Source of the DNA: a virus
IMG/VR virus record: IMGVR_UViG_3300037847_006664
Span: 1 to 36,521 of that record
Direction: 5' to 3' (one strand)
DNA length: 36,521 bases
Shown here: piece after piece, positions 4,181 through 32,623 of the stretch
Position numbering within the stretch: the stretch's first letter is position 1
Layout: each line of letters starts with the position of its first letter
Notes under the pieces: model-generated
The model's input: only the letters and a program-made list of their open reading frames with translations
Told to the model about the DNA's origin: nothing
Databases searched by the model: none
Translations under genes and position numbers: made by a program

Positions 4181-4217
4181 GTCTTTGCCTCGACAGAAGA
4201 TTCATTTTTACTAAAAC

Positions 4218-4225
4218 TATTTAGA
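4218..4225 (-). promoter_or_regulatory. T4-type late promoter variant TCTAAATA before gp18
   Basis: On the minus strand this reads TCTAAATA, one mismatch to TATAAATA, 38 bases upstream of the gp18 ATG. It lies in the 86-base gap between the zinc-finger gene and gp18, the longest gene-free stretch between full genes in the window. The same variant precedes gp15, which makes chance less likely. The gap also holds a short palindrome (ACTCCAGGAGT), but I see no terminator. Confidence 0.6.
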
Positions 4226-4266
4226 ATTTTGAACTCCTGGAGTGGGAAAACAGTGCATGAACAAAT

Positions 4267-4491
4267 TTACCAGTCAGGATATTGCCATTGACCATTATCT
4301 ACTTGTCTATTTTTAGTTACTCTTTTTTTGGTACACTCTTTGCATTCGTATGAATATGAAGATGGAAACATACCTCTATCTTTTCTTACAAGGTAAAATC
4401 CATCAATTAAATCTTTGGTCTCGCCACAACTTCGACACTTCCTTTTCTTGAACAGTAAGTGTTCTAAACTAAACTGCTCGTCAAAATCCAT
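4267..4491 (-). CDS. Small zinc-finger-like protein between gp17 and gp18
   Basis: A 74-residue basic protein of unknown function. It has two Cys pairs, CRSC (residues 19-22, within KKRKCRSCGETKD) and CKEC (around residue 51, within YECKECTKKR). This spacing suits one treble-clef or ribbon zinc site that may bind nucleic acid. I chose the ATG at 4489-4491 over an upstream GTG at 4506 because its A overlaps the TGA of the gp17 frame (TGATG), which points to translational coupling, and because GGGAG lies about 8 bases upstream. Similar small proteins are found next to gp17 in cyanomyoviruses. A role in packaging or late regulation would be inference from position only. Confidence 0.8.
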   Translation of the reverse strand: MDFDEQFSLEHLLFKKRKCRSCGETKDLIDGFYLVRKDRGMFPSSYSYECKECTKKRVTKNRQVDNGQWQYPDW

Positions 4492-4790
4492 CAGTGATAC
4501 TCCCACATGTATGATCTATCACCATATTCATCTGTATGCCAAAGATCACCATCTGCATCTACAAAAGAAGTATCATCCAATCCGTCAGACATAAACCCAA
4601 ATGGTGCCATGTCTTGTTCGATTTGATTCTTCTGCTCTTCGTATAATCTCTTTCGAACATCCTGATCAGTCAGTTCCTTAAAGTAATCCTGCTGAACTAA
4701 CCAAGCATAGATGACAAGACACATTGCAAGGTCATCATTACAACCTTCCTCTGCTTCGAATGATCTGTTCTTTTGAATGAATGTAGTCAG
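4491..4790 (-). pseudogene. 17: gp17 large terminase, detached C-terminal piece (frame-shifted)
   Basis: This frame is the C-terminal end of the same terminase gene, out of frame with the 5' part. Homology begins at the CTG codon 4788-4790 (LTTFIQKNRSFEAEEG) and runs to TGA at 4491-4493, 99 codons. It holds EEGCNDDLAMCLVIYAW, which matches T4 gp17 EEGYHDDLVMSLVIFGW; one of these aspartates is the third metal-binding nuclease residue (T4 D542). It then continues through the acidic tail LYEEQKNQIEQDMAPFGF and DRSYMWEYH. The only internal ATG that could start a separate peptide is at 4722-4724 and would begin after the catalytic aspartate. I read the whole as one broken gene, not as a second gene. 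The break could be a consensus or assembly error. Confidence 0.85.
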
Positions 4791-6051
4791 TTTTACTCAT
4801 CTTGACACCAAGTTGAGTCTTTTTACCTGAAAATCCTTGTCCCACAACTTGACCTGCTCTACCTCTCATAGAACACATCAATAAGTTCTGATATTCGAGA
4901 TCATATTGGAGAATACTTGCAACCTGATCTCCAATATCATTCACTTCACATAAAATGAATGCACTATTATAACTCTTTGCTACTTCCCAAATAATATTGG
5001 GGAACAGCATGGGTTTTATTTCATTGTTTCTATATTTTGCTACTACCTTATGTGGAAATTCTGTGATGTCTACAACTACAAACGCAGAATAGTCTTCACT
5101 GACTCCTCGGGCAACATCAACAGTTACCACATAATCATGTGCTTCTTCTGAAGGTTTATAGACATCTAATCCTGCATTTCTAGTTATTGGATTATCATAC
5201 ACTAATGTTCTGAGTTTACTTGGTGCAATTAAGGTATCAACAGATCCTAAGAATTCGCACTCAAACTCAACTTTGAATTGTTGTTCTGATGTGTTGGCAA
5301 TAGTGGTTTCTTTCCACTCTTCATCTCTACCAGGAACTTCGGACCAATGAACATCAGTTGGAATATATTCATTTTTACGCTTCTCCGCATCATGCCACAT
5401 GCGGTAGAAGTGATTCATACCATGTGGCGTAGATACGATAATTACTTTCGTGTTTTTACCAGAAGTAATAGTAGGATAAACAGATGCAAAGAACGAGTCA
5501 GCAACATGATTTGGGACGAACGCGAACTCGTCGAGAAAGAGGATGTTAAACGACATACCTCGGACAGCACTCGCAGATGTAGAAGCTGCCAATATTTTAC
5601 TGCCATTCTCTAACTCCAAAGAACCCTTGTTCCAGGATATAATACCCTGTTGCATCCATTTTGGCAAGTTTTCGTAAGCAGTCTGTAACCTACCAAGTAG
5701 TTCTCTTGCAGTCGCTGCCTTGTTTGCCAAAATACCAATATTTACACTATCATTAAAAACAGCATAATGCAAAAGATAAGATACCACGGTTGTAGACTTT
5801 CCAGTCTGTCGTGGCATCTTGCAGATATTGAATCTATTGTTATGGAAATTATTGATAAGTTTTTCTTGGAAATGATAAGGATGGAATTGTGTCAATCCCT
5901 CATCGAGAGAAACAATCTTGATATAATTGTTTGCAAAATATACAGGATCTTGTTTGCATTTGATAAATTCAGCAATCTGTTCTTGCGTAAACTCAATAGG
6001 AGTATTCGCTTTCTTCAGATTGGGATTTCCAAGATAAACATTATCAGTCAT
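4738..6051 (-). CDS. 17: gp17 large terminase, ATPase and partial nuclease (truncated by frameshift deletion)
   Basis: Large terminase subunit: the ATP-driven motor and nuclease that packages concatemeric DNA through the portal. The reading frame gives 437 residues, against 610 in T4. The Walker A-type P-loop is MPRQTGKS at 79-86, Walker B is ILFLDEF at 170-176 (D174, E175), and the coupling motif is VSTPHG at 206-211. The nuclease domain starts near 300, with D312 in VDVARG and E369 in LCEVND as likely metal ligands. After KKTQLGVKMSKT (410-421) the expected sequence stops and 16 unrelated residues follow to TAA at 4738. Comparison with T4 shows about 28 codons missing, with the rest of the gene continuing in another frame (4491-4790). 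The deletion length must be 3n+2. The gene starts 3 bases after the 57-residue gene. As written it cannot make a complete terminase. Confidence 0.93.
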   Translation of the reverse strand: MTDNVYLGNPNLKKANTPIEFTQEQIAEFIKCKQDPVYFANNYIKIVSLDEGLTQFHPYHFQEKLINNFHNNRFNICKMPRQTGKSTTVVSYLLHYAVFNDSVNIGILANKAATARELLGRLQTAYENLPKWMQQGIISWNKGSLELENGSKILAASTSASAVRGMSFNILFLDEFAFVPNHVADSFFASVYPTITSGKNTKVIIVSTPHGMNHFYRMWHDAEKRKNEYIPTDVHWSEVPGRDEEWKETTIANTSEQQFKVEFECEFLGSVDTLIAPSKLRTLVYDNPITRNAGLDVYKPSEEAHDYVVTVDVARGVSEDYSAFVVVDITEFPHKVVAKYRNNEIKPMLFPNIIWEVAKSYNSAFILCEVNDIGDQVASILQYDLEYQNLLMCSMRGRAGQVVGQGFSGKKTQLGVKMSKTDYIHSKEQIIRSRGRL

Positions 6052-7168: not shown

Positions 7169-7581
7169 TCTTTCTTAAACCCGTCTTTCAGAAGTTTCTG
7201 CAATTCTGCTGTTGATCCAACAAACAGTGCATTGTTTACGGTCGTAGGTGAAGATGACTTCTCTTCTTTATTTAGATCCTTCATCTTCTGCTGCAAATCA
7301 ATCAGTTTATCTGATACATCACCGACACTTTTAATCAGTTGACCTACAACTTCATACGATCTTGGTTGTTGACCCTCTTGTGCTAATTCAAGAATACCAT
7401 TAATTGCTTCTTGTCCTTTTTCAATTAAAGAATATAAGTTACCACGAGTATACTCATAATCTTTGATATGGTCTTCTTGTTTATTGATTTGCTTAAGTTG
7501 TTGTTTAGTTTCCTTTACAATTTCTCCCGCTTGAACTTCAATGTCCAACGAATCACTTATCTCGTCAAATTTTTCATTCAT
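7165..7581 (-). CDS. 16: gp16 small terminase subunit
   Basis: Small terminase subunit, which recognises or loads DNA and regulates the gp17 ATPase and nuclease. The 138-residue product is mostly helical with coiled-coil character (residues 18-40, ETKQQLKQINKQEDHIKDYE, and 95-110). It has the family core DYEYTRGNLYSLIEKGQEAI (residues 40-59) and QQPRSYEVVGQLIKSV (72-87), which match the T4 gp16 central oligomerisation region; T4 gp16 is 164 residues. The gene overlaps the end of gp15 and the start of the next gene by 4 bases each (ATGA type), which suggests coupled translation. Assignment rests on the central motif and on gene order 15-16. Confidence 0.9.
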   Translation of the reverse strand: MNEKFDEISDSLDIEVQAGEIVKETKQQLKQINKQEDHIKDYEYTRGNLYSLIEKGQEAINGILELAQEGQQPRSYEVVGQLIKSVGDVSDKLIDLQQKMKDLNKEEKSSSPTTVNNALFVGSTAELQKLLKDGFKKE

Positions 7582-8630
7582 ACATCTGTACCCTTAGTTG
7601 GACTATAAGTTCTACCATCACCAAAATCAAATCTCTCCTCACTAAATCCGAAGTCATCTCCGACTTCAATTAGAGCATCATCTGCAGCATTTACAGCGTC
7701 CACTGGAGTTGCTTGAATGTGGGAATCTGCAATCGTTCCATCTTCTCCTCTTCTAACAAGGAGAACATCATTAGTAATTTTTTTAATAAACATCAATTCG
7801 TTCTCAATTGCTATGTAAGTATCAACTGAGAGATTTGCTGCATTAGCAACCGTAAACTGAGTCTGTGTTGCATTAATATCTTCAGATAGACTTGTTACGC
7901 CATCATCATTATAATCTTTGAGTGCTCTTGGTTCTGCAATATATCTGACTTCTCTCTTAGGTGCCTTGATGTTTGTATTTGTATGATAATCGACCTGAAC
8001 TTTCTTGATAAGTGCAGTATTATTATCTGCAATAGGACCGAACAGATATGTTTTTGCAGTAAAATCTAGAGTGTGAATAATAACTCTTTTTTCTTCAAAT
8101 CCAGAATCATAATTATCGTCAAAATTAATTCCATCAAGAACCATTGGAACATCTCTCTTTTCCCCAATGGAGTCAACTAAGTCAATAGTTACATTGAATG
8201 ATGGTTGGAATACAGGAAGAATCTGCTCAATAATTTGCATTGAATCTTCATTGTATTGAGTCATGATTGATAATCTAAATCCCAAATTATATGGAACTGG
8301 CATGAATACTTTTCTTGCCGATTTAGATCCATCTTTCGTAAATGCTTTAAATGTTTGCATTGTTGAAATTTTTCTGGAATTATCATATGAGATACTTACC
8401 AGTTCAAATGCAAGTCTTGGAAGAGTAATCGAAACTCTTTTTCTGGGATCTGGTTTTTGTTCTAATCTTGCCAGAAACTTCTCAGTTGGACCATAAGCAA
8501 TGGGAACCTTCATAGTTGAGTAGTTAGACCCATCCTGCTTGGTGTGTCTTATCTCAACAGTATTGAAGAGAGTACCGAAAGCAATAATAGTCTTTCGTAT
8601 AATCTCGTGATAATGATATGTTCCTAACAT
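7578..8630 (-). CDS. 15: gp15 tail completion / sheath terminator protein
   Basis: In T4, gp15 forms the hexameric ring that caps the tail tube and sheath and joins tail to neck. The 350-residue product aligns with T4 gp15 (272 residues): N-terminal small aromatic start (MLGTYHYHEIIRKT), KVPIAYGPTEKFLARL near 41-56, ITLPRLAFELVSISYDN near 68-84, and SIMTQYNEDSMQIIEQILPV then FQPSFNV near 121-147. Residues 245-313 are an extra module with IENELMFIKKI and VRRGEDGTIADSHI, seen also in the giant baseplate proteins here. The protein ends with an acidic tail (IEVGDDFGFSEERFDFGDGR). A late-promoter variant lies 26 bases upstream of the ATG. Confidence 0.93.
   Translation of the reverse strand: MLGTYHYHEIIRKTIIAFGTLFNTVEIRHTKQDGSNYSTMKVPIAYGPTEKFLARLEQKPDPRKRVSITLPRLAFELVSISYDNSRKISTMQTFKAFTKDGSKSARKVFMPVPYNLGFRLSIMTQYNEDSMQIIEQILPVFQPSFNVTIDLVDSIGEKRDVPMVLDGINFDDNYDSGFEEKRVIIHTLDFTAKTYLFGPIADNNTALIKKVQVDYHTNTNIKAPKREVRYIAEPRALKDYNDDGVTSLSEDINATQTQFTVANAANLSVDTYIAIENELMFIKKITNDVLLVRRGEDGTIADSHIQATPVDAVNAADDALIEVGDDFGFSEERFDFGDGRTYSPTKGTDV
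7692..7898 (-). repeat. IxxE/RGxxGT module inside gp15
   Basis: Residues 245-313 of gp15 carry a beta-type module with the pattern 'tTl-V...(I)xIExE-I-xI......LxVxRGxxGTxAxxH..G..V' (here YIAIENELMFIKK and LLVRRGEDGTIADSH). Related copies are in the gp7-type protein (residues about 70-124, 304-360, 1503-1558, 2630-2701) and near the end of the 2410-residue protein. It lies where gp15 is longer than T4 gp15. Fold and function are unknown. Confidence 0.65.
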
Positions 8631-8655: not shown

Positions 8656-8663
8656 TATTTAGA
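8656..8663 (-). promoter_or_regulatory. T4-type late promoter variant TCTAAATA before gp15
   Basis: On the minus strand this reads TCTAAATA, 26 bases upstream of the gp15 ATG. The TAA in the motif (8659-8661) is the stop codon of gp14. It is identical to the variant before gp18. Confidence 0.6.
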
Positions 8664-10083
8664 ACTCGCCAAATGGGTTCCTTTCACTAAAATCTAAGAT
8701 TTCATCAGCAGCATTTTCAACTTCTATATTATCTGCATATTCATCATATTCATCCTGATCAGATATAGTCTTAATCTTGCGAGCAGCATCTGATCCGTTT
8801 TGAGTTGTTCCAATACCAACTACAATTTCATCCAAAGCAAAATTGCTGGATGTATTGGTAACTTGGAGGATACCAGTGTCTGAATCCCAATTCGCCACAT
8901 GCGCTGTAGTGCCCGTAGAAACGCCTCTGACGAGTTCTCCATACAAATAGTTATCTGTATTAATTCCAGTCGCTGGGGCGCTTATAGTGACATTTGGTTG
9001 CAGTGTATAACCAATACCAGCGTTGGTGTAATTAATCGCTGTAACAACTCCAACCGTATTGAGCACCGCCACAGCAGTCGCTCTCGTTCCATTTGGATCT
9101 GCAGGAGCACCAACAGTTACTGATGGAGTTGATCCATATCCAACACCAGCGTTAGTAATAGTAAATGGACTCAAAGATCCAGATGAAATAATTGCAGTAG
9201 CAGCAGCACCAGTTCCATATTGATTCTGACTACGAATGGTAACTGTTGGTGGTGCTGTATATCCAAATCCAGGATTTACGATATCAATTCTTTCAATTGA
9301 TTGCTCAAGTTGACCAGGAATATTAGTCATAACAGCAACAGCAGTTGCATTGATGCCTCTGCTTGGAGCAGTAGATATTCCGATTAGTGGTCTAGTTGTG
9401 TATCCAGTTCCATCATTGATCAAATCAATGGAAGATATAGATTGACCAGTTTGTAAAGTACTTAATGTCTTAGCAACAACAGCAGTTGCTGCAGCTGCAG
9501 TTGCCCCGAGACCCACCATGGTGAGTTTTGTTGTGTAGATAAAGTCAGATGCTGCCTGATCGACCACTTCGATTCCAGTATCGATATTTTCATCGAGAGC
9601 AGCATCAAATACTTCACAACTCAACTGATAAACATATAACTTATTCAGTTGATAGAAAGGTTTCTTTGCTTCAACATATTTGATTTCAAATAGAGTATTA
9701 TCAAGAGGAAAATAAATTAAATCTCCCTCTTGTGGTCTAGAAGTCAATGAAACATTTTCTCCAGCAAGGAATGGACTAATGAAGTCTTCATACCTCTCTT
9801 TGGATATGATAAATGTTACTTGATCTGTAGACTGTACACCAAACTTGGATAAAATATCTCCACCACCTTGAAATCCTTCATAGTTAGAAAGATATGCTTC
9901 CAATCTAAATGAATCATCAAACTCAGATGCTATAGTTTCATTTAAGATAGAATCCTTGTTAATTATCTTTCTTGGAAGATAAAGAACATCTTGTCCATAT
10001 ATTTTTAACTGCTCGTTGATCAGATCTTGAACAAGTCTTTGTTCGCTATTTGATCCTTGTAAAAAGTAAGAATTTAATGGCAT
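8659..10083 (-). CDS. 14: gp14 neck protein with inserted repeat domain
   Basis: In T4, gp14 forms with gp13 the neck that seals the filled head and receives the tail. The N-terminal 180 residues align closely with T4 gp14: YGQDVLYLPRKII (29-41), FRLEAYLSNYEGFQGGGDIL (59-78), FGVQSTDQVTFII (81-93) and EGDLIYFPLDNTLFEIKYVE (119-138) followed by KKPFYQLNKL (140-149). The C-terminus ...NPFGEF resembles the T4 end DPFNNDDF. T4 gp14 is only 256 residues; the 474 here come from an insertion at about 190-430, with four GxGY-P repeats (215-372) and a second beta module (VRGVSTGTTAHVANWDSDTG, 385-404). The start lies 6 bases after the gp13 stop, with AGGTTGATGAATT before the ATG. Confidence 0.94.
   Translation of the reverse strand: MPLNSYFLQGSNSEQRLVQDLINEQLKIYGQDVLYLPRKIINKDSILNETIASEFDDSFRLEAYLSNYEGFQGGGDILSKFGVQSTDQVTFIISKERYEDFISPFLAGENVSLTSRPQEGDLIYFPLDNTLFEIKYVEAKKPFYQLNKLYVYQLSCEVFDAALDENIDTGIEVVDQAASDFIYTTKLTMVGLGATAAAATAVVAKTLSTLQTGQSISSIDLINDGTGYTTRPLIGISTAPSRGINATAVAVMTNIPGQLEQSIERIDIVNPGFGYTAPPTVTIRSQNQYGTGAAATAIISSGSLSPFTITNAGVGYGSTPSVTVGAPADPNGTRATAVAVLNTVGVVTAINYTNAGIGYTLQPNVTISAPATGINTDNYLYGELVRGVSTGTTAHVANWDSDTGILQVTNTSSNFALDEIVVGIGTTQNGSDAARKIKTISDQDEYDEYADNIEVENAADEILDFSERNPFGEF
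8968..9441 (-). repeat. Four tandem GxGY-P protein repeats inserted in gp14
   Basis: gp14 residues 215-372 hold four units of about 40-47 residues, each with the core 'INxGxGYxxxPxVxI....G.xATAvA'. The cores are NDGTGYTTRPLIGIS (223-237), NPGFGYTAPPTVTIR (270-284), NAGVGYGSTPSVTVG (311-325) and NAGIGYTLQPNVTIS (354-368). They sit between the two segments that align with T4 gp14. Similar units are in gp7, gp8 and the 2410-residue protein. They probably form beta structure on the particle surface. Confidence 0.85.
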
Positions 10084-13539: not shown

Positions 13540-16500
13540 CTGTTGAGAATGATCTGAGGGCGATTGCTCTGAAGTCCTTAAGTCTAGGTGCCTGTGCTTG
13601 GTTTGTAGATGTCATGATCACTTTAATCATGAATCCATTGAACTGAGGAGTATTTTCAGCAGTAAACTTGTACTCACTAAATCCATTTTCAGTTTCATTT
13701 GGATTTACAACCTTATCGGAGGAACCATCAGAATTGAACGGAATGTATGCTTGTGATGCATCATTCATATCTTTTCTAAACAATTTGTAGAACACACGGA
13801 TGTCAGCATCTGCTTCTCTATGTGCATCAAACTGTACAAAGAGTGAGTTTGAAGTAAATTCAAGTTCAATCTTTTTAGTTTCATAGATTCCAGCGTTAGG
13901 ATCAGCACCAGGAGTTCTGACTCTTGCGTCAGTTTCATAGTCTGAAACCTTACTATTGACAAGGTTACTAACTGCAATAATATTTGTTGTCTCTAAATCT
14001 AGCAGAGGAGATACATCTGGGTTTGATGTCTGCATCAAGAACTCAAGAGCAAATGATTTTTCACCACCAAGCAATCCAGATTCATTTACTTTGGAAGCAA
14101 CAATTCTTGGACTATCGAGGCGATTCAGTTTGTTAAGAGTCACTGGTTCATAACCCAAATCTTGGAATGATGCTTCGGAACCACTAATACTTGTTCCAGA
14201 TGTAGTCTTAATTCTTGCAGAAACAGTTGTTCCTGAAGGATTGACCATGTTGAATGATGGATTAATATATTCGAATGGAATGTTCTGAGAAACCTGAACA
14301 TTATTACCACCACCAACTCTAGTTGTTCCAAATGACTTACTAGTATCAGTAAGTTTTACATGATAACTATTGAATGTCTTTTCTCTAGGATCAATATTGT
14401 GCTCTTTGTTGATCTTCAGCAGTGATACTGAATTGAACTCATATTTGAACACATTTGTATTTCTAGCATGATTAGATTTGATACTAGAATCTACAACTCT
14501 ACTTGCAACTGTGATATCATTGCTACTAATAGTATTGTAAGAAATAATTTCCTTATTAATCAGCAAGTAACCAGTATTTGCGGCACCGACTGGTGATCCT
14601 TCAAATGTAGCAAACGCAGAACCATCAGCAACTTTGATAATAGTTGTATCATTATCAACTGCTGCAGTAAGTGTAGTTGGTTTTACATCACTTTGTACAT
14701 CATAGACTCTAAGTTTATTTGTACTTGCGTGCATACCATGATTATGGTGATCAAAGAGCATTGTTACACCATCTCTGATTGCATCATTAGTGACTGCTGT
14801 AGGAGCAAGCATATCAGCACCAACTCCTGCACTATTAAAGTAAGTGTATGCAACACCAGCGGAGATATTAGAGTCAACATCATCAACGATAAGTAAGTTT
14901 GTTGTTGATACAATTCCAACTGTTACTCTTACTCCAGATCCAGTTGCACCAATTGGATTGGCGAGAAGAAGATCTCCAACTGCATATCCAGATCCAGCAG
15001 AGGTAACATTGATTGAAGTGACTGCACCGCTACCAACTACGACTGTAGCAACAACAGAACTTCCAACTCCAGTCAGTGGTGTAAATTCAACTCCAGTGAA
15101 TGTTCCGTCTGTAAGTCCAATTCCAGCAGAAGTAAGTGTGAGCGAACTTGCATTTAAACCAAGTGGTCCACCAACTGATACAATTTTACCGCTATTTGCA
15201 CCCTGTCTGATTTCATTACCAGCAACAAATGTTGTGGTTGTATCGGCAATCGAAACTCTCTGTCTCTTAGAATATGCTGTGACTGGGTTGTTCTTTCTGA
15301 TTCTTCCAAGTGGAAGTTCACTATTGTAGAAGATAACAGAAGAGGCAGTATTAGTTACAAACTTCGCTTTATTGAGTGTAAACTTAAGGTCTTCCAACTG
15401 ACTTGGTGTCCAAGTAGACTGGTTTTGAGACTTGAACAGAGATCCAAGATATGGTTGTCTATTATAAACCGCTTTGAGAAGAAGATCTTCCTCACCCATT
15501 CGAGTGATGAATGTCAAGTACTTCTCTGTTGGTGCGATCAGAACCAGAGCATATTCATATCCTGCCTGAAGATAAACAGGAGAGTTGAACTTAAAGTTAG
15601 TTGCAACACTACCATCATCAGAAGTCAATACATCTGATGGTTCAATATTTACTTGACCAAATGGAACAACAGTTGTTGTTGGAGTACCATCTCTCATAGT
15701 TCTAATTTGAACCGTTACTGGAATAGTATTGTCTTTGGTCTTAAAGAACAGATCTCCACCAGTAATAAAGACACCATCAGACTTATTATCAGTATCGACT
15801 AAGAATGATTGAGCAAGAGGATCATACCATCCACCGAAAGTAGTTTGATTTTCGGTGATAGTTTCTCTTGTAAGTTCTTGAGTGACTCTTGAAATTGGTT
15901 GGTCTGTACCAATTTGTCTTCTTTCTACTTCTGGTGTTTTAATAGAGAGAGTTTGCTCTTGAACATTTCTAGCATATCCAGTTGCAACATAATCAGTTTC
16001 TGCAGAACTTTCACCTGGATCAAGTCTAGCAGGATTAGAAGCAACTGTTGTCAATCTGATTGTATTTGTTCCAGTTGTAAACTTAGGATTTGAAGCAATC
16101 TTAGGATCTGGAATATGAAGTGAGAATCTAAGTTCACCTTTTTCATCTGTAATCAGTTCTGTTCCTGTTACTCTTGCTTCAGCAGTGCCACTTAAGTTGA
16201 CAAGAGACATTCCAGTCTTAACATATCCAAGATGGTCTGGTGTAACTTGACTTGCAAGTCCAGGAAGATCGATGTTTATTTGTGTCGAAGTTCCAGAATA
16301 AGAGGAAGATGTATTTGGTAATTTTTTCGTTGGTGCATTGAATGGACCTTCTTCATGGTCATGATCAGCAAGACGCAATCTGATACTTGGTGCCCCAGCA
16401 ATATATCCACCAACATTATCAACAATGTCACCAGTTTGGAATGATCCTCTAACCATTTCAACTTTCAATTGTTTTGGAATTGCATATTCATTCATGTCAA

Positions 16501-22369: not shown

Positions 22370-25300
22370 TTAGTAAGCTACTCTTAATTGCAGGAGTCTT
22401 GACACATGTGCTGATGTTTCAATACCAGCGATTCCATTTTGATTATAGAAAGTAAATGACTTAGCAGTAGATACTGATCTAGTTCCTGTATTTATGGCAC
22501 CCCAACTATATGTTCCAAAAGTTGCAGAATTTGGTTGATTTGCAGTATTAATTCCTGTAAGAGAATTGACATTAGCAGATACACGAATTGTTGAAGATCC
22601 AATAGAAGTAACTTTACTTGCATAGTAAACATTATCAATGAAACTATTACCTATAGCAACAACAGAATTCACATCTCCAATAATTGATGTAACTCCTGCA
22701 CCAAGAGTAGTATTTCTAATTACAAAATAATCTCCAACAGCAATTCCTGGTTTAGAAACTTTACCTGCAGGGGCAGCACTATCATAAATCACATCACTTG
22801 GTCGTAAGTCGAATTCAATCATCGGTGTTGTAGTGTTAATGCCACTGGTACTAGCACCAATACTGGTAATCACACCATAATCACCAGAATAAGTAACATT
22901 CTTAAATTCTTCCACAACCACTGTAGTTCCAACACCAACTACTCTAATATCATTCAATGTTTGTCCAAGATTATCTACATTCTGGAATGCCCAAGAATCA
23001 TTGATGTACATCTTAGTTGAAGTCTCATCAAAAGGAGCAATAAGATTACTTGCTGGGAAATATTGTGGTTCAAGATAATCTCTTTCTTTGGAGATAACAA
23101 TACCATCAATAATTAAGTCAGAAGTCTGTTTAGTCCATTCTACAGGTCTCTTAAATGTGGAATCAGTTACAATGCCAACACCACCATATGTTTCAGTCTC
23201 TACAGTATCAGAAGCAATCAATTCATAAATGATTCTCTGATTTTGTGAAGAAATTCTATCTTGCTGTTGTAGTCTAAGTCTATCACCAGGTTTGATTGAT
23301 TCATCAACATCAATTTCTCTGAAGTCAGCAGAAGAACCAGTATAGAAGTAAATTCTAAAATTACTTCCAGGTTTTGGTGCTTCTTTAAATTCTAATCGTG
23401 TACCACTTGTAAACACATAATCAACATTTGGTTTTTGTAAGACATCATTTAAGAATATCAACAGATTGTTAGCAAGTATGATTCCAGAACCCTGTTTTGC
23501 TACAATACTGTAGTATTCTTTGTTTACAGTTGTTCTAGTAAGTAAGAATGATTTTCTAAAACCATTGAATTGATTGCTGAAATCATCCAGTTCAAGAAGT
23601 TGACCAAATGTCCATCCAGCAAACTTATCTTGATACTTATTGACAACAGTAACTACAAAATTACTTGTTCCAATTCCTACTGTATTGAATGGAATACCAG
23701 TGAGTGAAAGAACATCACCAACTTCATAACCTGATCCACGATCTGACATATTGAAGTTTACAATACTTCCACCAGTACCAACTACAACATCCATTTTGGC
23801 ACCAGATCCATTGCCACCAACAAGACCTAGATTTCTATATGGGGCAGGGGCCTCAACTGTAACTAATGGTGGGTTTGATGCACTATATCCAGAACCTCCT
23901 GCAGCAACAGTAAATCCAGTTATAACACCATTTGCCACAGTTGCAATTACTGAAGCACCCACACCAACGCCAAGAGTGTCAGCGATAGAAACTCTAGGAG
24001 CACTTATGTACCCAGATCCACCTGTAGAAACTCCAACAGATTGGACGGCACCACTGGAAACAGTTGCAAATCCAACTGCTTGTCTTGGAATTTGATATCC
24101 ACTACCAATACCAACTGAGAACTCGTTGATAATACCACCTTTTGGAAGATCACCATTTGGTCCAGTTCCAGTGAAGTCAATAGTTTGACCAACACCAGTT
24201 ATCTGATAATCTGAATTTTGAATAGATCCAACATCACCAAAGAATGGTTTTTGGAAAATATTGTCAATGAGAATAGCACCAAAACTAGAGTTAATTCCTG
24301 TAACTGTTTGTCCATTTAATTTGAGATCAAATGTATCAGTAGAACCATCAAACTGCTCAGAAATATCATCGAGGATTACATTATTAGTATAATCTAGTCT
24401 ATAATATGCTCTACCAGCAAATGTAGATTTGGTGGTTAAACTTCCAATTCCAGTTGGACCATATGGAACATCAGTGAAGTAAAGTTTTCCATGATCAATT
24501 CTATAGTCTCCAGAAAGAACTGTGGTTGCAGCACCTACAGTATGTGCAGCGGCAACTGTTCCCATTTGACCACGAATGACAGCAAGTCTGTTTGTTAATC
24601 CAACTCCTACTAACTGAACTTTAAGTATCTCATCTTCAATCTTGATAAGAGACTTACCTTTGATATTTGAGATATCATTTACTGTTACTGTGGTTGAACC
24701 AATTCCCACTGCTTGTGAGAGACCAATACTAACATCCTTTCTGGCAACAGGACTTTGAATTATATTATCAACTGTGATAATTGCTCTAGAGGTTGCAACA
24801 TCACTTGGAACTGCAAAACTATGTGTAGATCCAATTCCTGTTATTGAATCGAAATCAACAGATGTTCCTGCAGTAGCCTCAGATGATCCTATTGCAAGTT
24901 TGAATTGATCATCAGTAATCTTAATAGCAAAAACTTCACTTGGTAATTTATCAGTTGCAGCAATGCCAATTCCTGGAGAACTTGTAGTATTGATTCCAAT
25001 AGTTGTGCCAGTATTCTGTGAATTATTGGTTGGAGAATATACAAGTCTTTCTCCAGTATTGAAATTATGTCGAGGGATTGTTATTGTATTTGTTGATGTA
25101 TCAATTGCTGCTGGGTCAAAGGTATGATAGAAAAGAGTATCCCCACCAGTAAAGACAGAGAATGTGGACATACCCACTATTCCACCACCAATACTAGTTG
25201 TATATCCAGTAAACTGAGAACTGATATCATCAATCAGTAATACCTTGTTTGTAATTGATTCGTTGTAATCGGTGATCACCTTAGAATCAAATATAATAAA

Positions 25301-28300
25301 CTTAGACAAGTTTGATACATTTGTATCTTCAGACGCAAGATCATAGAACATTCTGGTATGTACAGATGCACTACTTGGAATTACAACATCAAGATCAAGT
25401 TGAGTATCTGTAATACTCATTCCGACTCTGGTTCCAGCACCATTAAGGACTTGAAGATCTGAGAAATTTTTGTAACCAGAAGTGTGATCCAAACTATTGA
25501 CAGACTCTTTCCAATGCTCATATGCAACTTCACCACGAATACTGTATGAGAATCTTTGATAATAGTCACTATCGTGAATATTTTGTAAAGAGGAATTTAA
25601 TTTACCAATATCGTCTTTCCATTCACTTGCATCTTCTACTGTGCTTCCAACATTTACATCAAAATCAAACTCAAATACATCTTCAACAGTTGCTTTAAAG
25701 TTTCCAACCTGTCCTCTAATAATATCTCCTTTCTTGAAGGATTTTGAAACATTTTTAACCTTTAATGTTTGAGTTTGTGCATCCCATCCATTTGAAGCAA
25801 CAGATCCAAATACTTCTCCACTATTCAGAATAATTTTTTCATTTTCTAAGAATTGAATCTTTTCAAACTCTGGAGTAAATACCGCCAATTCATCTGCTTT
25901 GATAACTCTACCAAATGAATTTGTTGCATCAAATGATCCTCCAGTAGATCCAATTCCTGCAATAGAATACGATACACTTTCTGTTCCAGATACAGTGTTA
26001 ATTCCAGTTACAGTAAAGTAACTATAGTCATAATCACTGGAATTATATCCATCTGCAGTATTTGTGATTTTTATATTTTCAACGAAAATTTTATCATTGA
26101 TTGCAAATGGGAATGGATTTGCTGTAGTAAATCCAGCATTAGGTGCTCTAAGAGAAAGAGTATTTGTTCCCAAACTAGAAACAGCATTAGTTACTCTAAC
26201 GCCATTGGAATTAACTATTGGAACAATTCTAAGATCTTCGCTCAGATTACTATCATTGGAGATAATTTCAACATTAAACACTGAACTACTTTGAAGAGTT
26301 GTTCTAGTCTGAATATTTGTGTTTCCGATAGCAACTACAATTGGAGCAGATGTGTAATTTCTTCCTCCTGTATTGATTCCAATGCTCTTCAGAGTTGAAA
26401 CATTTTTTAATTTGAGAACTACATTTGAATCTGCTTTTGGTGTTAAGGTTTTATCTTCTAAGAATTCAATTCCTTGCTGAATTACCTTATCATCAGAAAT
26501 TTGACCAATATCTGTAGCATTTACCTTTAAGATAGCAGCAGATCCAGTAGTTGATGCGATTGATGTTACAACTGGAAGTTCTTTTAAATCTTTTCCAGAA
26601 TTGACAACCTTGACAGAATGAATTCCACCTTTCTCAAAAGTAGAACTTGTAGAATAAAATGCACTACTAAATCCTGCAGCAGTATATGAGGTTGTTTCTG
26701 CACTTCCAACTAAAGTAAAGTCAAATGTAGTAGATCCAACTGATGTGATTCTATGCTTTTTGCTATACCTGGACTCAACTACAGAAATATTTGAATATAA
26801 ATTTACATCGGTATCAGCAGATGTTGGGTAAGTATTTGTATACTTTATTCCATCACCTTCAATTCTGTAAAATAGTTCTTTTGGAAGATCATTTGAAACA
26901 TCAATACTAATTACTGTGGATGTATTTGAATCTCCAAATGTTCCTATTTTTTTAATTGAACTAGACTCATATCTAGATTCAAATTTATTATCCGTATAGA
27001 AGTTAATATCATAGTCGATAAGACTTGCATCTGAGGCAGCAATAGAAACTTTTCCACCTCTGTAAAACTCTAGTCTTGGATTGATCTTAGATATTTCATG
27101 TGTTCCATGACCTTGATTTGAGATTATAATATTTTCATATGGGAACTTAGAAACATCTAATTTATTATCAGCTAATTTGATCTTATCATCAGAAATTTTA
27201 ATTACATAATACTCTCTATTATTTTGTAGTGGAGTTGCTATACCAACAGAGTTTGTATAGATTACAATGTCACCAGTCTCAAAATCATGTCTCTCAATAG
27301 TAATTTCTGATGTTGATCCAACAGCAACTGCAGTAGAAGCAAAAGATACTGGATTAACTACAAGTTTCTTTGCTACATTATTGAACTTAAATGCATATTC
27401 TTGTGTTCTACTAGGAGTTACATTTAATCTAACTTCATCCTTTTGCTTTAATGTATGTTGAGTATCAAGAACAACTTGTGCAGATACTTTTTTAGCAACA
27501 GCAGTAAGATTTTCCTTCTGCACCTCAAATGAATGATTGTTACCATTTACACTCGTAAAGTAAATGTAAGCGGAGGTAGAAATTCCAGACTTAGTTGTTG
27601 AAATACCAATAAAATCTTTTGCAAATTTTACCGTATATAAAGATGATGCAACATCATCAAGCAAGAAAGTACTACTAAGATCAAAATTTGGAGATGCAAA
27701 GACAGATCCACCAGCAGAAACATATTCTACTTTGTCACCAGTATTAAATCTGTGATTTGGAAGATATATTGCTCTAGGAGGAACGGAAACTGTAATATCT
27801 GTGCTACCAGCAACTCCAACAACTACTGAACTATATGTTGTTCCGATTCCAACAGAATTTGGTGCATCAAATGTCTGCTTGTGTCCAAAATCAATATTTT
27901 TGTTTTCTAATTTGGTTTCAAATTCAAATGTAAAGAGTGTTGGAGTCTTACTTACTGCAACACCATTATTATGTGCAGTTGCTGCAGTATTATTATGTGA
28001 TCTGGTAACTTTATATTTGTTATTGACTGTATCAACATTAGTAATCAACATTTGTTCATTACCAATTGTGATTACATCACCCTTACTAAATTTGCGGGTG
28101 ATTGTAGGTTCTGATATTTGAATTGATGTAGAAAGACCTGTGACAGTAGTTGCAGCAATACCAGCAGAAAGAGTGGAAGAAACTGTACTTACACCAACGG
28201 TTCTAAATCCTTCAATATTTTTGTAGAGTGATGAAGAAATACCAGAAATTTCTACAATATCAGAATCGACAAATCCATGAGGTAGTGTAGAAATACCAGT

Positions 28301-31300
28301 TATCTTATTATCTTTTACTGATAAAGCTATATTTTCAACTACATTATCAGTTGTTGTTATTGAGTTAATATTTCTTCCGAGAATTTCTTGAATTTCGGCA
28401 TCAATAGATGTGTCAGAAAGATTAACCTGTTCTCCAACTTTGTAATTTTTTCCAGAATTTTCTACAGTAACAGAATTAATTTTAGAACTCTTTACTGAAG
28501 ATACTTCAATGATAGAATTGGATTGTAATATTTCAGAAAGGAAAGGATAATCTCTAGAAGGATCATCTAATCCTAATTGTGTCACAACTCTCTTATACTC
28601 GCCACTATTCAGATGTTCATCTAATTGATTAACTGATAAGTCATAATTAAATTCATCAGAGTGATTGTAATGGGATTTAGTGATATATGGATATGCAAGA
28701 TTTCCATTAACATCTAATGTTGAGAAATATGCATATGTTCCATTTGGAAAATCTGAGTTTACAAGATATCTACCATTATATTCATCAAGATCACCACTTG
28801 CTTTATAGACATAATCTTGTGCAAAATATCCATTAGCGAAACCAGGTGGTCTTAAATCAGGTGTTGTGACTACATCTACCTCATAACTTGAATATATTTT
28901 CTTAACACCACCAGTTCCAGTATTATCAGGAATTGCTTTTCCATTTCCATATGGACCATAGATTGGGTTTCCATCATATGCCCAACCAATGATTGGTGAA
29001 TGTGAAAGACCAGTGGTTTTTTCTGCTAGTGCTCCTCCACCTTGAGTGACAATATTGTCACTAAGTAGATTTCTATAAAATTTACCTGGATAGAATGAAA
29101 CTAATTTATTTTGTCTTGATGATGAAATTGATTTAGTTTGAACCAAATCTTTATATAAAACATTACTCAGAATATTTGAATATCTTTCAATATTATTAAT
29201 TTTCCATTCGTGAACTTCAGAATTTAATTTTACATCCTTTCCTGTTGGAATAACTTCAACAACTGTATCATCGTCATACCCACTTCCGCCATCAATGATA
29301 GTAATTGCAGTAATTACACCATTAACAGTGGTTGCAGTTAGTTCTGCAAGTCTTCCCTTTCCAACAACTCTTACAGTTGGTGGTGTAGTATATTCAGATC
29401 CTCCATCTGCAATATAAACACTTTGAATTTTTCCTGCAGACACTAAAGGTCTAATGTCAGCATCTTTTCCTGTAAGAACTTTTACTTGTGGAGTCTTATT
29501 GTAATTTACAATGTCACTCGAACCATATCCAACTCCACCAGAGCGTATGAAGACACTTTCTAAACTACCACGCACAACTGGAGTTCCAGTCGCATTGTAA
29601 TATGATGGAACACTGGTAGTTTCGCCAACAGATACTAATCCATTTATTGAAACTACAATATCAGGATATTTGAAAGTGTGTGTCCCAACTCCAACACTAG
29701 AAAGATCAGCATAAACTTGATTATCATAATTTACACTAGTAATACTTGACGCTGTTCCTGCTTCGCTTAGTTTAAATCTATGATCATCTAATACAGTTAC
29801 TTTATAATATGATGATGCTGTTAATCCTGTTATAGAAGTTCCATCTACAGAATATACTACATTATCACCATTTTTGAATTTATGATTTCTTGCATAGATG
29901 TAATTATTTTCTACATTCACTCCAACAAAAGAAGAGAAAATATCTTTTTGATCTGAAGGAGGCCAAGCAATACCATCAACAACTACCTTTTTGTTTGAAA
30001 AGTCATTGCTACTTTGATTTACAACGATTTTATCAATTACTTTTCTAATTTGTCTTGATCTCAATGTGTGGTCTTGATTACCAAAGGCATTGAAATCAAT
30101 CAGATTAGTTTTTGCCAAAGCATCTGCTCTTGAAATAGCAAGAGAGTATGATGTATTATCATGCTTTGCAACAAAATAAGTTGCTCCAGATGATAATCTA
30201 TCAGTAGAAAAACCAACTGCAGTGCTACCAATACCAACTGGTGTTCCAGTTGCAACATATGTAACTTCTTCGCCATCTAAGAATCTATGTTCACTTGTGG
30301 TCGTTACTTTGTCAGTTAAAAGATTTACATTAAAATCTGTAAATGATGATGAATGAGTAAATCCTCTCATTCTTGCTTCACATATAGATGATGTTCCATT
30401 TCCACCAGAAATAGTTACAGATGGTGTTTCAATATAATTGAAACCAGGATTTGTTAATACAATGCCTTCAATTTTTCCTTCAAAGTTTCCATGGACCACT
30501 GATCCAGATCCAACAGTATCTGCAACAGAAACTTGTGGTGCATTTATAATATCAAATCCAGATCCCGCGTCTAAAATATTAACCTGTTCAACTTGACCAT
30601 AAAAAATTGCATCTGATGAAATTGGTGAATCAAACTCAACACCATTCAATGCCACACCTACAGCACCTGTAATATCTTTATGATTTGTTGCTGGTTTTGG
30701 TGTCTTATTGATCTTTTTAAAATTATTTTGATTGATCAATGAAGAACCATATAAAGATGATGGGGTTATGTTTGTTTGATCGCTGTAAACTTTTTCTCCA
30801 TTCAAAAATCCATGTGCATTGATATTGATTGCATTAGTAGCATATACTTTGTTCTCAATAGCAGATGGACTAAGTGCTAATCTAATATTATTATTATCAA
30901 CTACATGCACATAGTAAGTTCCTGTTGTAATTCCAACAGATGCTGCTTTAGCACGATTTGTGGTATCAATAGATTCATATGAAGGATATCCAGAGAAGGC
31001 AACATATGTATTTTTATTTTTATCTACAAAGGAATTTTGAATATTCGATAATACATTTCCACTCAAAAGATTTGTAGAAGCAAAATTTAATTTTTTCTTG
31101 ACAATATATGGAACACCATTTTGTAATGTTCCAGAACCAATCTGAAACTCAAGTGAATTATTGACAGAAGTTACTTGAGCATCTAATACAACTGGACCTC
31201 TAGTTTCTTTTAAGAGGATATCGACTTTATCACCAACATGCAAATAATGATCAACTTCTGTAGTAAGGGCATTAGAAGCGGGTACTACAGAAGTAACATT

Positions 31301-32623
31301 TGTGAATGTAATATTGTTGTAGAACCAGGTATTGAATTTTTTATCATCTTGATCCGTTTTTTCGCCCAGATGCTTTACACCAACTCTATCTCCACTGGAA
31401 AATAATTTAGTGGTGTCAGAATTTTTAGCGGATCCTAAAATGGATCCCACAATTCGCATTCTTACTGGTTTTGATAAATCGTTATCCTCGAAACCATAAA
31501 GATATACACCATCAATGATTGGACTATTCTCTACTAATGTGGTTGAGAGTCCTACACAATTGAAAAATTGATTACTAGACTTTCCGCTGTAAGTTACTTC
31601 TGCATATGATCCAAGATTTGTTAAATTATAAAAACTTCCAGATTCTGGAAATCCAATCGTAGAATCTACAGTCAATGTAGTATTGCTACTATTGGTTCCC
31701 AATACTTTAGTTCTCTTGCTTACAGATAATGGATTAGTAATTGATCCATTAGATAAGAATAATTTGTAATATATTTTATTTCCTAAAGAAACTTGAGTAA
31801 CTCTAGAAACCGTTGCTTTTGATGTTGGATTTGTAAGAGAATTCTCTAAAACAGTGGTAGCAGCAAGTTTTGATGGATCCCCGTCGATCTGTTCAACTAT
31901 AATATTATCAGTAATCGACCAATCTGCAGAAGATGCTAAAATGGTGTTGTCAAATGGTTTTATGACATCAATAGTTTTTCCAAAAAGAACACTGAACAAA
32001 ATTTTCAGTGAAGAATCGGTTCCCTTTGAACTATAAAAATCTCTTGCTCTAGAAAGAATATTGTCTACATTAACACCTGTAAATTGTCTCTCTTCGAATC
32101 CAGGTAAAAATTGAGATTTATACTTTCTGTAAAATTCTTGTAAGAATACTAAACTAAGATTTTGAACAACAGAATCTACATCATGACTATCTGTTGAAGT
32201 AGAATTGAAATTTAAGAATTCTGGTTGAAGTTCACCTTCAATCCTATCAATTCCACTAAATCCTCTAATACAACCTGTAAAACTAGTATTTGTCTTTCCA
32301 GTATATGTAATGATCTCATTATTAATTTTAATCAATCCGTAAGTGTTTGGAAAACCTGCGGTTGATGATACATTAATCACATCATCAAGGTCTAAAACCT
32401 CTTGCGTTACTGTTACTGGTACAGCAGCATATGTAAGTCTGGAAAATGACCCAATATCCTTTAAATCGCCAATACGACCAGCAAGATCACTAGTTCCATA
32501 TTCATGTTCTTCAGAAATGTAGTACTGTTGCAAAAATTCTTTGAACAGGGGACTTTCTGCCTGAATGAATTCTGGAATCTGGCTATCCAGAATGCTAGAG
32601 ATTTTTACCTTTTTATCTAACAT
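22370..32623 (-). CDS. 7: Giant gp7-type baseplate wedge protein (3417 aa)
   Basis: In T4, gp7 (1032 residues) initiates wedge assembly. The N-terminal 230 residues here match the C-terminal region of T4 gp7: SPLFKEFLQQYY (24-35) against SNFEAFCEAYIQYL, and ILSRARDFYSSKGTDSSLKI then LFSVLFGKTIDVI (189-221) against the T4 FESRSYDFYSTKGIEASYKF region. The remaining 3200 residues are a mosaic of beta modules: IxxE/RGxxGT copies (70-124, 304-360, 1503-1558, 2630-2701), GxGY repeats (675-746, 1022-1130, 2860-2978 and single units), a YHYH-like domain (about 1203-1325) and FLNDVLQKPNVDYVFTSGTR (about 3050). The C-terminus has SFTFYNQNGIAGIETSAHVS. It lies between gp6 (3-base gap) and gp8. Gene name rests on N-terminal similarity and synteny. 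Confidence 0.88.
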   Translation of the reverse strand: MLDKKVKISSILDSQIPEFIQAESPLFKEFLQQYYISEEHEYGTSDLAGRIGDLKDIGSFSRLTYAAVPVTVTQEVLDLDDVINVSSTAGFPNTYGLIKINNEIITYTGKTNTSFTGCIRGFSGIDRIEGELQPEFLNFNSTSTDSHDVDSVVQNLSLVFLQEFYRKYKSQFLPGFEERQFTGVNVDNILSRARDFYSSKGTDSSLKILFSVLFGKTIDVIKPFDNTILASSADWSITDNIIVEQIDGDPSKLAATTVLENSLTNPTSKATVSRVTQVSLGNKIYYKLFLSNGSITNPLSVSKRTKVLGTNSSNTTLTVDSTIGFPESGSFYNLTNLGSYAEVTYSGKSSNQFFNCVGLSTTLVENSPIIDGVYLYGFEDNDLSKPVRMRIVGSILGSAKNSDTTKLFSSGDRVGVKHLGEKTDQDDKKFNTWFYNNITFTNVTSVVPASNALTTEVDHYLHVGDKVDILLKETRGPVVLDAQVTSVNNSLEFQIGSGTLQNGVPYIVKKKLNFASTNLLSGNVLSNIQNSFVDKNKNTYVAFSGYPSYESIDTTNRAKAASVGITTGTYYVHVVDNNNIRLALSPSAIENKVYATNAININAHGFLNGEKVYSDQTNITPSSLYGSSLINQNNFKKINKTPKPATNHKDITGAVGVALNGVEFDSPISSDAIFYGQVEQVNILDAGSGFDIINAPQVSVADTVGSGSVVHGNFEGKIEGIVLTNPGFNYIETPSVTISGGNGTSSICEARMRGFTHSSSFTDFNVNLLTDKVTTTSEHRFLDGEEVTYVATGTPVGIGSTAVGFSTDRLSSGATYFVAKHDNTSYSLAISRADALAKTNLIDFNAFGNQDHTLRSRQIRKVIDKIVVNQSSNDFSNKKVVVDGIAWPPSDQKDIFSSFVGVNVENNYIYARNHKFKNGDNVVYSVDGTSITGLTASSYYKVTVLDDHRFKLSEAGTASSITSVNYDNQVYADLSSVGVGTHTFKYPDIVVSINGLVSVGETTSVPSYYNATGTPVVRGSLESVFIRSGGVGYGSSDIVNYNKTPQVKVLTGKDADIRPLVSAGKIQSVYIADGGSEYTTPPTVRVVGKGRLAELTATTVNGVITAITIIDGGSGYDDDTVVEVIPTGKDVKLNSEVHEWKINNIERYSNILSNVLYKDLVQTKSISSSRQNKLVSFYPGKFYRNLLSDNIVTQGGGALAEKTTGLSHSPIIGWAYDGNPIYGPYGNGKAIPDNTGTGGVKKIYSSYEVDVVTTPDLRPPGFANGYFAQDYVYKASGDLDEYNGRYLVNSDFPNGTYAYFSTLDVNGNLAYPYITKSHYNHSDEFNYDLSVNQLDEHLNSGEYKRVVTQLGLDDPSRDYPFLSEILQSNSIIEVSSVKSSKINSVTVENSGKNYKVGEQVNLSDTSIDAEIQEILGRNINSITTTDNVVENIALSVKDNKITGISTLPHGFVDSDIVEISGISSSLYKNIEGFRTVGVSTVSSTLSAGIAATTVTGLSTSIQISEPTITRKFSKGDVITIGNEQMLITNVDTVNNKYKVTRSHNNTAATAHNNGVAVSKTPTLFTFEFETKLENKNIDFGHKQTFDAPNSVGIGTTYSSVVVGVAGSTDITVSVPPRAIYLPNHRFNTGDKVEYVSAGGSVFASPNFDLSSTFLLDDVASSLYTVKFAKDFIGISTTKSGISTSAYIYFTSVNGNNHSFEVQKENLTAVAKKVSAQVVLDTQHTLKQKDEVRLNVTPSRTQEYAFKFNNVAKKLVVNPVSFASTAVAVGSTSEITIERHDFETGDIVIYTNSVGIATPLQNNREYYVIKISDDKIKLADNKLDVSKFPYENIIISNQGHGTHEISKINPRLEFYRGGKVSIAASDASLIDYDINFYTDNKFESRYESSSIKKIGTFGDSNTSTVISIDVSNDLPKELFYRIEGDGIKYTNTYPTSADTDVNLYSNISVVESRYSKKHRITSVGSTTFDFTLVGSAETTSYTAAGFSSAFYSTSSTFEKGGIHSVKVVNSGKDLKELPVVTSIASTTGSAAILKVNATDIGQISDDKVIQQGIEFLEDKTLTPKADSNVVLKLKNVSTLKSIGINTGGRNYTSAPIVVAIGNTNIQTRTTLQSSSVFNVEIISNDSNLSEDLRIVPIVNSNGVRVTNAVSSLGTNTLSLRAPNAGFTTANPFPFAINDKIFVENIKITNTADGYNSSDYDYSYFTVTGINTVSGTESVSYSIAGIGSTGGSFDATNSFGRVIKADELAVFTPEFEKIQFLENEKIILNSGEVFGSVASNGWDAQTQTLKVKNVSKSFKKGDIIRGQVGNFKATVEDVFEFDFDVNVGSTVEDASEWKDDIGKLNSSLQNIHDSDYYQRFSYSIRGEVAYEHWKESVNSLDHTSGYKNFSDLQVLNGAGTRVGMSITDTQLDLDVVIPSSASVHTRMFYDLASEDTNVSNLSKFIIFDSKVITDYNESITNKVLLIDDISSQFTGYTTSIGGGIVGMSTFSVFTGGDTLFYHTFDPAAIDTSTNTITIPRHNFNTGERLVYSPTNNSQNTGTTIGINTTSSPGIGIAATDKLPSEVFAIKITDDQFKLAIGSSEATAGTSVDFDSITGIGSTHSFAVPSDVATSRAIITVDNIIQSPVARKDVSIGLSQAVGIGSTTVTVNDISNIKGKSLIKIEDEILKVQLVGVGLTNRLAVIRGQMGTVAAAHTVGAATTVLSGDYRIDHGKLYFTDVPYGPTGIGSLTTKSTFAGRAYYRLDYTNNVILDDISEQFDGSTDTFDLKLNGQTVTGINSSFGAILIDNIFQKPFFGDVGSIQNSDYQITGVGQTIDFTGTGPNGDLPKGGIINEFSVGIGSGYQIPRQAVGFATVSSGAVQSVGVSTGGSGYISAPRVSIADTLGVGVGASVIATVANGVITGFTVAAGGSGYSASNPPLVTVEAPAPYRNLGLVGGNGSGAKMDVVVGTGGSIVNFNMSDRGSGYEVGDVLSLTGIPFNTVGIGTSNFVVTVVNKYQDKFAGWTFGQLLELDDFSNQFNGFRKSFLLTRTTVNKEYYSIVAKQGSGIILANNLLIFLNDVLQKPNVDYVFTSGTRLEFKEAPKPGSNFRIYFYTGSSADFREIDVDESIKPGDRLRLQQQDRISSQNQRIIYELIASDTVETETYGGVGIVTDSTFKRPVEWTKQTSDLIIDGIVISKERDYLEPQYFPASNLIAPFDETSTKMYINDSWAFQNVDNLGQTLNDIRVVGVGTTVVVEEFKNVTYSGDYGVITSIGASTSGINTTTPMIEFDLRPSDVIYDSAAPAGKVSKPGIAVGDYFVIRNTTLGAGVTSIIGDVNSVVAIGNSFIDNVYYASKVTSIGSSTIRVSANVNSLTGINTANQPNSATFGTYSWGAINTGTRSVSTAKSFTFYNQNGIAGIETSAHVSRLLQLRVAY
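23690..24045 (-). repeat. GxGY triple repeat near the C-terminus of the gp7-type protein
   Basis: Three units: STGGSGYISAPRVSIADTLG, VAAGGSGYSASNPPLVTVEA and MSDRGSGYEVGDVLSLTG, spaced about 40-50 residues apart with alternating GA/AT/V-rich strands (ASVIATVANGVITGF). Same core as in gp14. Confidence 0.8.
24520..24735 (-). repeat. IxxE/RGxxGT module, copy in gp7-type protein
   Basis: The encoded segment VGIGSTTVTVNDISNIKGKS, LIKIEDEILKVQLVG and LAVIRGQMGTVAAAHTVGAA is the clearest copy of the module found also in gp15 (IENELMFI, VRRGEDGTIADSH). Further copies in this protein are at 32252-32416, about 31545-31715 and about 27950-28115. Confidence 0.7.
28650..29018 (-). other. YHYH-like domain within the gp7-type protein
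   Basis: Residues about 1203-1325 read LSHSPIIGWAYDGNPIYGPY ... LDEYNGRYLVNSDFPNGTYA ... YPYITKSHYN. This follows the YHYH domain pattern (GxAYDGxPIYGPxG, then LDExNGR and PxGTYxYxxT near the end). The domain occurs in secreted and surface proteins of marine bacteria and eukaryotes and is of unknown function. In this copy the PNGTYHY motif reads PNGTYAY. Confidence 0.75.
29235..29560 (-). repeat. GxGY repeat cluster in the gp7-type protein
   Basis: Units: FIRSGGVGYGSSDIVNY, YIADGGSEYTTPPTVRVVGK and IIDGGSGYDDDTVVEVIPTG, with intervening strands of the type SAGKIQSVYI and TVNGVITAITI. A similar pair is at 30385-30600 (LDAGSGFDIINAPQVSVADT and LTNPGFNYIETPSVTISGGN). Confidence 0.75.
32252..32416 (-). 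repeat. IxxE-type module inserted in the gp7-homologous N-terminus
   Basis: Residues 70-124 of the gp7-type protein (VSSTAGFPNTYGLIKINNEI, ITYTGKTNTSFTGCIRGFSG) interrupt the segment that aligns with the T4 gp7 C-terminal region. This is the 'GFPxxGxIxIxxEIxxYTGK' form of the module. Confidence 0.65.

Follow-up and report, generated by a model that had tools for sequence, protein, structure and literature searches.

A small beta-barrel module, optional in the tail terminator gp15 of T4-like cyanophages, and its probable relatives in two giant proteins of the same gene block

The window, that is, the whole stretch of DNA analysed here, comprises 36,521 bases of a virus record and carries a T4-like cyanophage structural-gene block on the minus strand. 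This block encodes gp25, gp6, a gp7-type protein of 3417 aa, gp8, a DUF4815/VrlC-type protein of 2410 aa, gp13, gp14, gp15, gp16, gp17, sheath, tube and portal, some of these names having been assigned from gene order. The gp15 gene (7578-8630, minus strand) encodes 350 aa and, judged by this protein, the nearest annotated relatives are T4-like phages of Synechococcus and Prochlorococcus. Two other features of the block deserve mention. The frame of gp17, the terminase large subunit (4480-6051, minus strand), stops prematurely at 4738, and the C-terminal portion resumes in another frame just downstream, the Terminase_6C match covering only positions 2-82 of 155; this interruption is a frameshift or a sequence error. 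Between gp17 and the sheath gene, a short open frame (4200-4490, minus strand) contains CxxC...CxxC pairs and is zinc-ribbon-like.

Three parts can be distinguished in gp15. Residues 1-244 (7899-8630, minus strand) form a tail terminator core of the T4 gp15 type, which matches Pfam PF16724 over residues 5-245 (E 8e-82; 274.5 bits, against a curated cut-off of 25) and T4 gp15 itself by sequence up to residue 220. In the AlphaFold model this core is moderately confident (mean pLDDT 68) and adopts the terminator fold, with a Z of 15.9 to T4 gp15 (4huh) and of 8-12 to other tail terminators. At the opposite end lies a conserved C-terminal tail (DDALIEVGDDFGFSEE...; residues 315-350 plus the stop, 7578-7688, minus strand), in which D325, D326, F327, G328, F329 and E331 are invariant among 40 aligned module-bearing gp15s; the tail, with its DDFGF motif, is also present in gp15s that lack the module. 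The segment in between, residues 245-314 (7689-7898, minus strand), is the beta-barrel module, which an earlier note on this DNA had placed at residues 245-313 and positions 7692-7898, within one codon of these boundaries. It constitutes an exact insert: P-SSM2 gp15 reads KDYNEDS-VIDQYDDPLIPPGDDFGF, whereas the window gp15 reads KDYNDDG-[module]-AADDALIEVGDDFGF. T4 gp15 (272 aa), aligned directly, gave no match to the module, in agreement with the claim that it lacks this segment. As judged from these alignments, the gp15 barrel is a discrete and dispensable unit set between the T4-gp15 core and the conserved tail, and the insert explains the greater length of the window gp15 with respect to that of T4.

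It had also been proposed that the gp15 segment matches residues 2630-2701 of the gp7-type protein, and that looser copies exist near residues 70-124, 304-360 and 1503-1558 of the latter and in the 2410-residue protein. Pairwise comparison of gp15 with gp7 2635-2697 gave E values of 1e-4 to 1.6e-3, with the remaining pairs worse, and was on its own not strong enough to settle the matter for most copies. The main profile was seeded with gp15 modules from 11 further viral contigs, free of window sequences, and iterated on a set that excluded the window proteins and a contig with a gp15 identical to that of the window; the window was scored last. Under these conditions gp15 scored 117 bits at iteration 1 and 105 at iteration 5. 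In the gp7-type protein, the C-terminal copy (residues 2634-2703; 24515-24724, minus strand) rose from 15 to 45 bits over 2635-2702, and the middle copy (residues 1494-1560; 27944-28144, minus strand) from 13 to 34 bits over 1484-1558. The N-terminal copy (residues 69-128; 32240-32419, minus strand) was detected over 71-155 from iteration 2 (6 bits) and reached 26 bits at iteration 5, or 71.5 bits with a subfamily profile devoid of window sequences. The copy in the 2410-aa protein, which has a longer loop (residues 2029-2109; 14438-14680, minus strand), went from 9 to 27 bits over 2030-2108 (range 9 to 33 bits). The best scores in 100 shuffled window proteomes were 4-7 bits, and no reversed decoy fell below E 3 in the second, inclusive iteration.

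This general profile did not recover the copy near 304-360. It was found by a narrower profile, made from the gp7 N-terminal subfamily and likewise without window sequences, at 313-357 (31553-31687, minus strand) with 17.5 bits and E 2.4e-6, against a best of 10.6 bits in 100 shuffled proteomes; it is a diverged partial copy that lacks the RG..GT..H part, and it lies at the same place in the gp7 of P-SSM2 (321-366) and S-SM2 (325-382). The copy in the 2410-aa protein likewise occupies the same site in S-SM2, P-SSM4, P-SSM2, syn9, S-SCSM2R and S-SSM7. When the gp15-only and gp7-only family alignments were compared with HHalign, they matched over the whole module with a probability of 97.3% and E 1.8e-11. 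All the copies listed in the earlier note have thus been recovered, and its further claim that the module differs from the GxGY type is borne out, since it behaves as one domain family and does not overlap the GxGY stretches. Across the 225-226 distinct copies compared, E278 and R294 (gp15 numbering) are universal, while G298 is kept in 87% and T299 in 80%, with the proviso that these copies were selected by profile, a procedure that favours conserved columns such as these four. As a separate observation, the gp7-type protein also contains a YHYH domain (PF14240, E 1.4e-21) at residues 1199-1306 (28706-29029, minus strand).

AlphaFold predicts a six-stranded barrel for gp7 2620-2733, with a pLDDT of 84-93 over the module (model residues 11-90), and the same six-strand pattern at residues 246-313 of full gp15, with a pLDDT of 86-94 over 241-310 and 75 for 311-320. 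The input alignment for gp15 held no gp7 copies, and the two models are independent. Both display the same strand order and spacing, and the barrel is of the insertion-domain type of about 70-100 residues. When searched separately, the two models retrieved the same set of solved structures, matched over the same segments, at Z about 9-10.7. These include residues ~59-155 of the capsid of Vibrio phage VP1 (9in6_M, Z 10.3-10.7), ~423-640 of the JBD30 hub (8rk3_b, Z 9.9-10.1), 103-186 of the tail tube of phage Mystique (9n71_A) and 8-105 of the GP4 tail fibre (8jov_1), an entry for which a literature search gave no relevant paper. Fold matches were also obtained to the Chi hub (8vjh_A, Z 9.5 with VIA-align, the 8vjh alignments having high rmsd values of 8.8-21.4) and to the tailspikes LKA1 (4ru4_B, Z 9.3) and K1 lyase (7w1d, Z 8.1). 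A Z over 8 was taken to separate a match from the common-fold background, and 8rk3_b, 9in6_M, 8vjh_A and 4ru4_B lie above it. Profiles and models together argue that the gp15, gp7-type and 2410-aa copies are, with high probability, homologous and share the barrel fold.

The relationship extends to other phages. A profile built from 12 gp15 modules and one gp7 copy (A1) finds the tail hub/tip protein of phage Chi (8vjh_A) by sequence, with E 2.5e-5. A wider profile (A2) finds 8vjh at 1.5e-11 and JBD30 8rk3_o 500-556 at 0.006; because one siphophage hub copy is part of A2, the PDB matches of that profile are not fully independent, whereas the A1 match is. A copy of the module is also carried by a Pseudomonas siphophage central tail hub. 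The Chi and JBD30 hubs resemble the module both in sequence, the profile match including the E...RG...T...H pattern, and in fold (Z 9.5-10.1), but there the barrel is an insert in the trimeric tail hub of a siphophage, at the tip. Domain VI of the JBD30 hub has been reported to be a small beta-barrel of six strands, in contact with domain VII and stabilising the baseplate (PMC11445458); by position and fold, this domain probably corresponds to the 8rk3_o 500-556 match. The tailspikes LKA1 gp49, KP34gp57, AP22 gp54 and K1 lyase also have a six-stranded barrel inserted into another domain. In sequence, the K1-specific depolymerase 9k4a was the only spike matched by A2 (8e-4, 35 residues); the LKA1 spike barrels were not recovered in this way and are matched by fold only. 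The tailspike barrel completes a polysaccharide-cleaving cleft, whereas gp15 lacks a beta-helix and is not known to have enzyme activity; an enzymatic role of the module was set aside, as it matched no catalytic family. The I-domain of the P22 coat protein has been likened by others to the LKA1 barrel and reported to stabilise contacts between subunits (PMC5701251), a likeness known from that publication and concerning a capsid rather than a tail protein.

Nineteen PHROG whole-protein families match the module set, and most of those with an assigned function are proteins of the tail, baseplate, fibre or virion. When the module was scanned against Pfam and NCBIfam, no shared family emerged: isolated members hit unrelated families, and no such hit was common to two copies. 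The barrel belongs to a known kind, called the 'insertion' or small barrel domain in phage tail hubs and tailspikes, for which no Pfam or NCBIfam model was found. It appears in the structural literature one structure at a time, as domain VI, insertion domain or oligosaccharide-binding domain, and the E...RG..GT pattern, together with the profile seeds, provides a sequence handle for it. Our literature search found no description of the barrel at an optional location in the neck.

The module is present in 139 and absent from 103 of 242 distinct gp15s, numbers that reflect a collection gathered with four chosen queries and a few reference phages rather than prevalence. In the closest pair of opposite state, gp15 L328 carries the module and L295 does not, their cores being 86% identical; since relatives this close manage without the barrel, it would be unnecessary for the basic terminator function. 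On the core tree, which cannot distinguish gain from loss, the module state switches at least 5 times, and well-supported branches require 2 of these switches. The identical insertion site and the clustering of the gp15 modules are suggestive of an old insertion that was later lost several times, or of exchanges of the gene's 3' end. Such closely related pairs with and without the insert offer a natural experiment on an accessory barrel at the neck-tail joint. In the Synechococcus phage S-SKS1 (L195, 1501-2194), gp15 is unannotated and tblastn finds it in three pieces.

Our reading of these data, to which we assign a probability of about 0.7, is that a portable six-stranded barrel of ~70 residues is an optional insert in gp15, has its other copies at fixed sites of the gp7-type and 2410-aa proteins, and plays an accessory role where the neck meets the tail. 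It has been described that the C-terminus of T4 gp14 packs on gp15 residues 203-245 in the assembled virion (PMC12270204). The barrel would begin right after the equivalent segment and, if the window gp15 is hexameric as in T4, six barrels would ring the neck-tail joint. From there they might reinforce or decorate the interfaces that gp15, gp14 and the upper end of the sheath form with one another, in a manner comparable to the support that the JBD30 hub barrel gives to its neighbours. Since no solved gp15 or neck from a T4-like cyanophage came to light, the position and contacts of the barrel in the virion are inferred, and the odds that its role in gp15 is structural, a proposal made by analogy, are roughly even. 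A link with gp14 length might be expected if the module bound gp14; among six reference phages, no such pattern appears, gp14 measuring 470 aa (P-SSM2), 390 (syn9) and 270 (DSL-LC02) alongside module-less gp15s, and 308 (P-SSM4), 481 (S-SM2) and 762 (S-SSM7) alongside module-bearing ones.

The main competing explanation is that the barrel binds carbohydrates, either host or environmental glycans, and would make the neck sticky when carried by gp15. Barrels of RcGTA that resemble the LKA1 gp49 insertion domain have been named oligosaccharide-binding (PMC7296036), although this name rests on fold similarity, and the spikes KP34gp57 and LKA1 have their sugar cleft lined by the inserted barrel (PMC5701251, PMC10653864), although binding is there shared with the beta-helix. 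A binding surface would also be expected to vary, whereas the universal E278 and R294 look like a structural requirement, and the neck lies far away from the end that meets the receptor. By analogy with the spikes, carbohydrate binding by the gp15 barrel is conceivable but rather improbable.

A different question is how the copies came to lie in several genes. The earlier note held that domains had been passed between the genes of this virion; what stands is that three proteins of one genome carry members of one family, at five or more sites. A recent shuffling within this genome would also fit the repeated changes of module state in gp15 (about 5, at least 2 of them forced). Against it, a tree of 68 module copies requires 8 host-gene changes, near the minimum of 5 and far from the mean of 35 obtained with shuffled labels, although with few columns and low support this tree leaves room for old exchanges among genes. 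The groups formed by gp15, the gp7 C-terminal site, the gp7 N-terminal site and the 2410-aa protein stay largely intact across many phages, and the window gp15 copy is nearest to the gp15 copies of other phages and not to this phage's own gp7 copies; gp15 and gp7 copies are only about 26% identical in sequence. Recent exchange is thus unlikely. Because the copies cluster by gene and site and not by genome, the spread of the module, as read from its sequences, is ancient and not private to this virion. Convergence of unrelated small barrels on a common fold, for which it can be said that F1-ATPase N-terminal barrels also match at Z 7-7.5 (set aside as relatives, being fold-level background at Z about 7.5), is very improbable, given that sequence profiles join the phage copies with scores well beyond those of shuffles and decoys, and that these copies share an E...R-G...T pattern, a likeness in sequence that extends to the siphophage hubs.

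A wider and much more tentative view can be entertained, according to which this unnamed family might be a general docking barrel of tailed-phage virions, used at both ends of the tail in one particle. Under that view gp15 would offer a naturally switchable site, with a ring of neck barrels present or absent in close relatives.

Repeated accretion of domains in the neck may extend beyond gp15, because gp14 also varies in length among cyanophages, from 270 to 762 aa. In the window, gp14 (8659-10083, minus strand) has 474 aa versus 256 in T4; its match to the T4 neck-protein family is limited to residues 11-159, and GxGY repeats occur in the rest, at 225, 272, 313 and 356. The longest is the gp14 of S-SSM7 (L084, 34704-36992).
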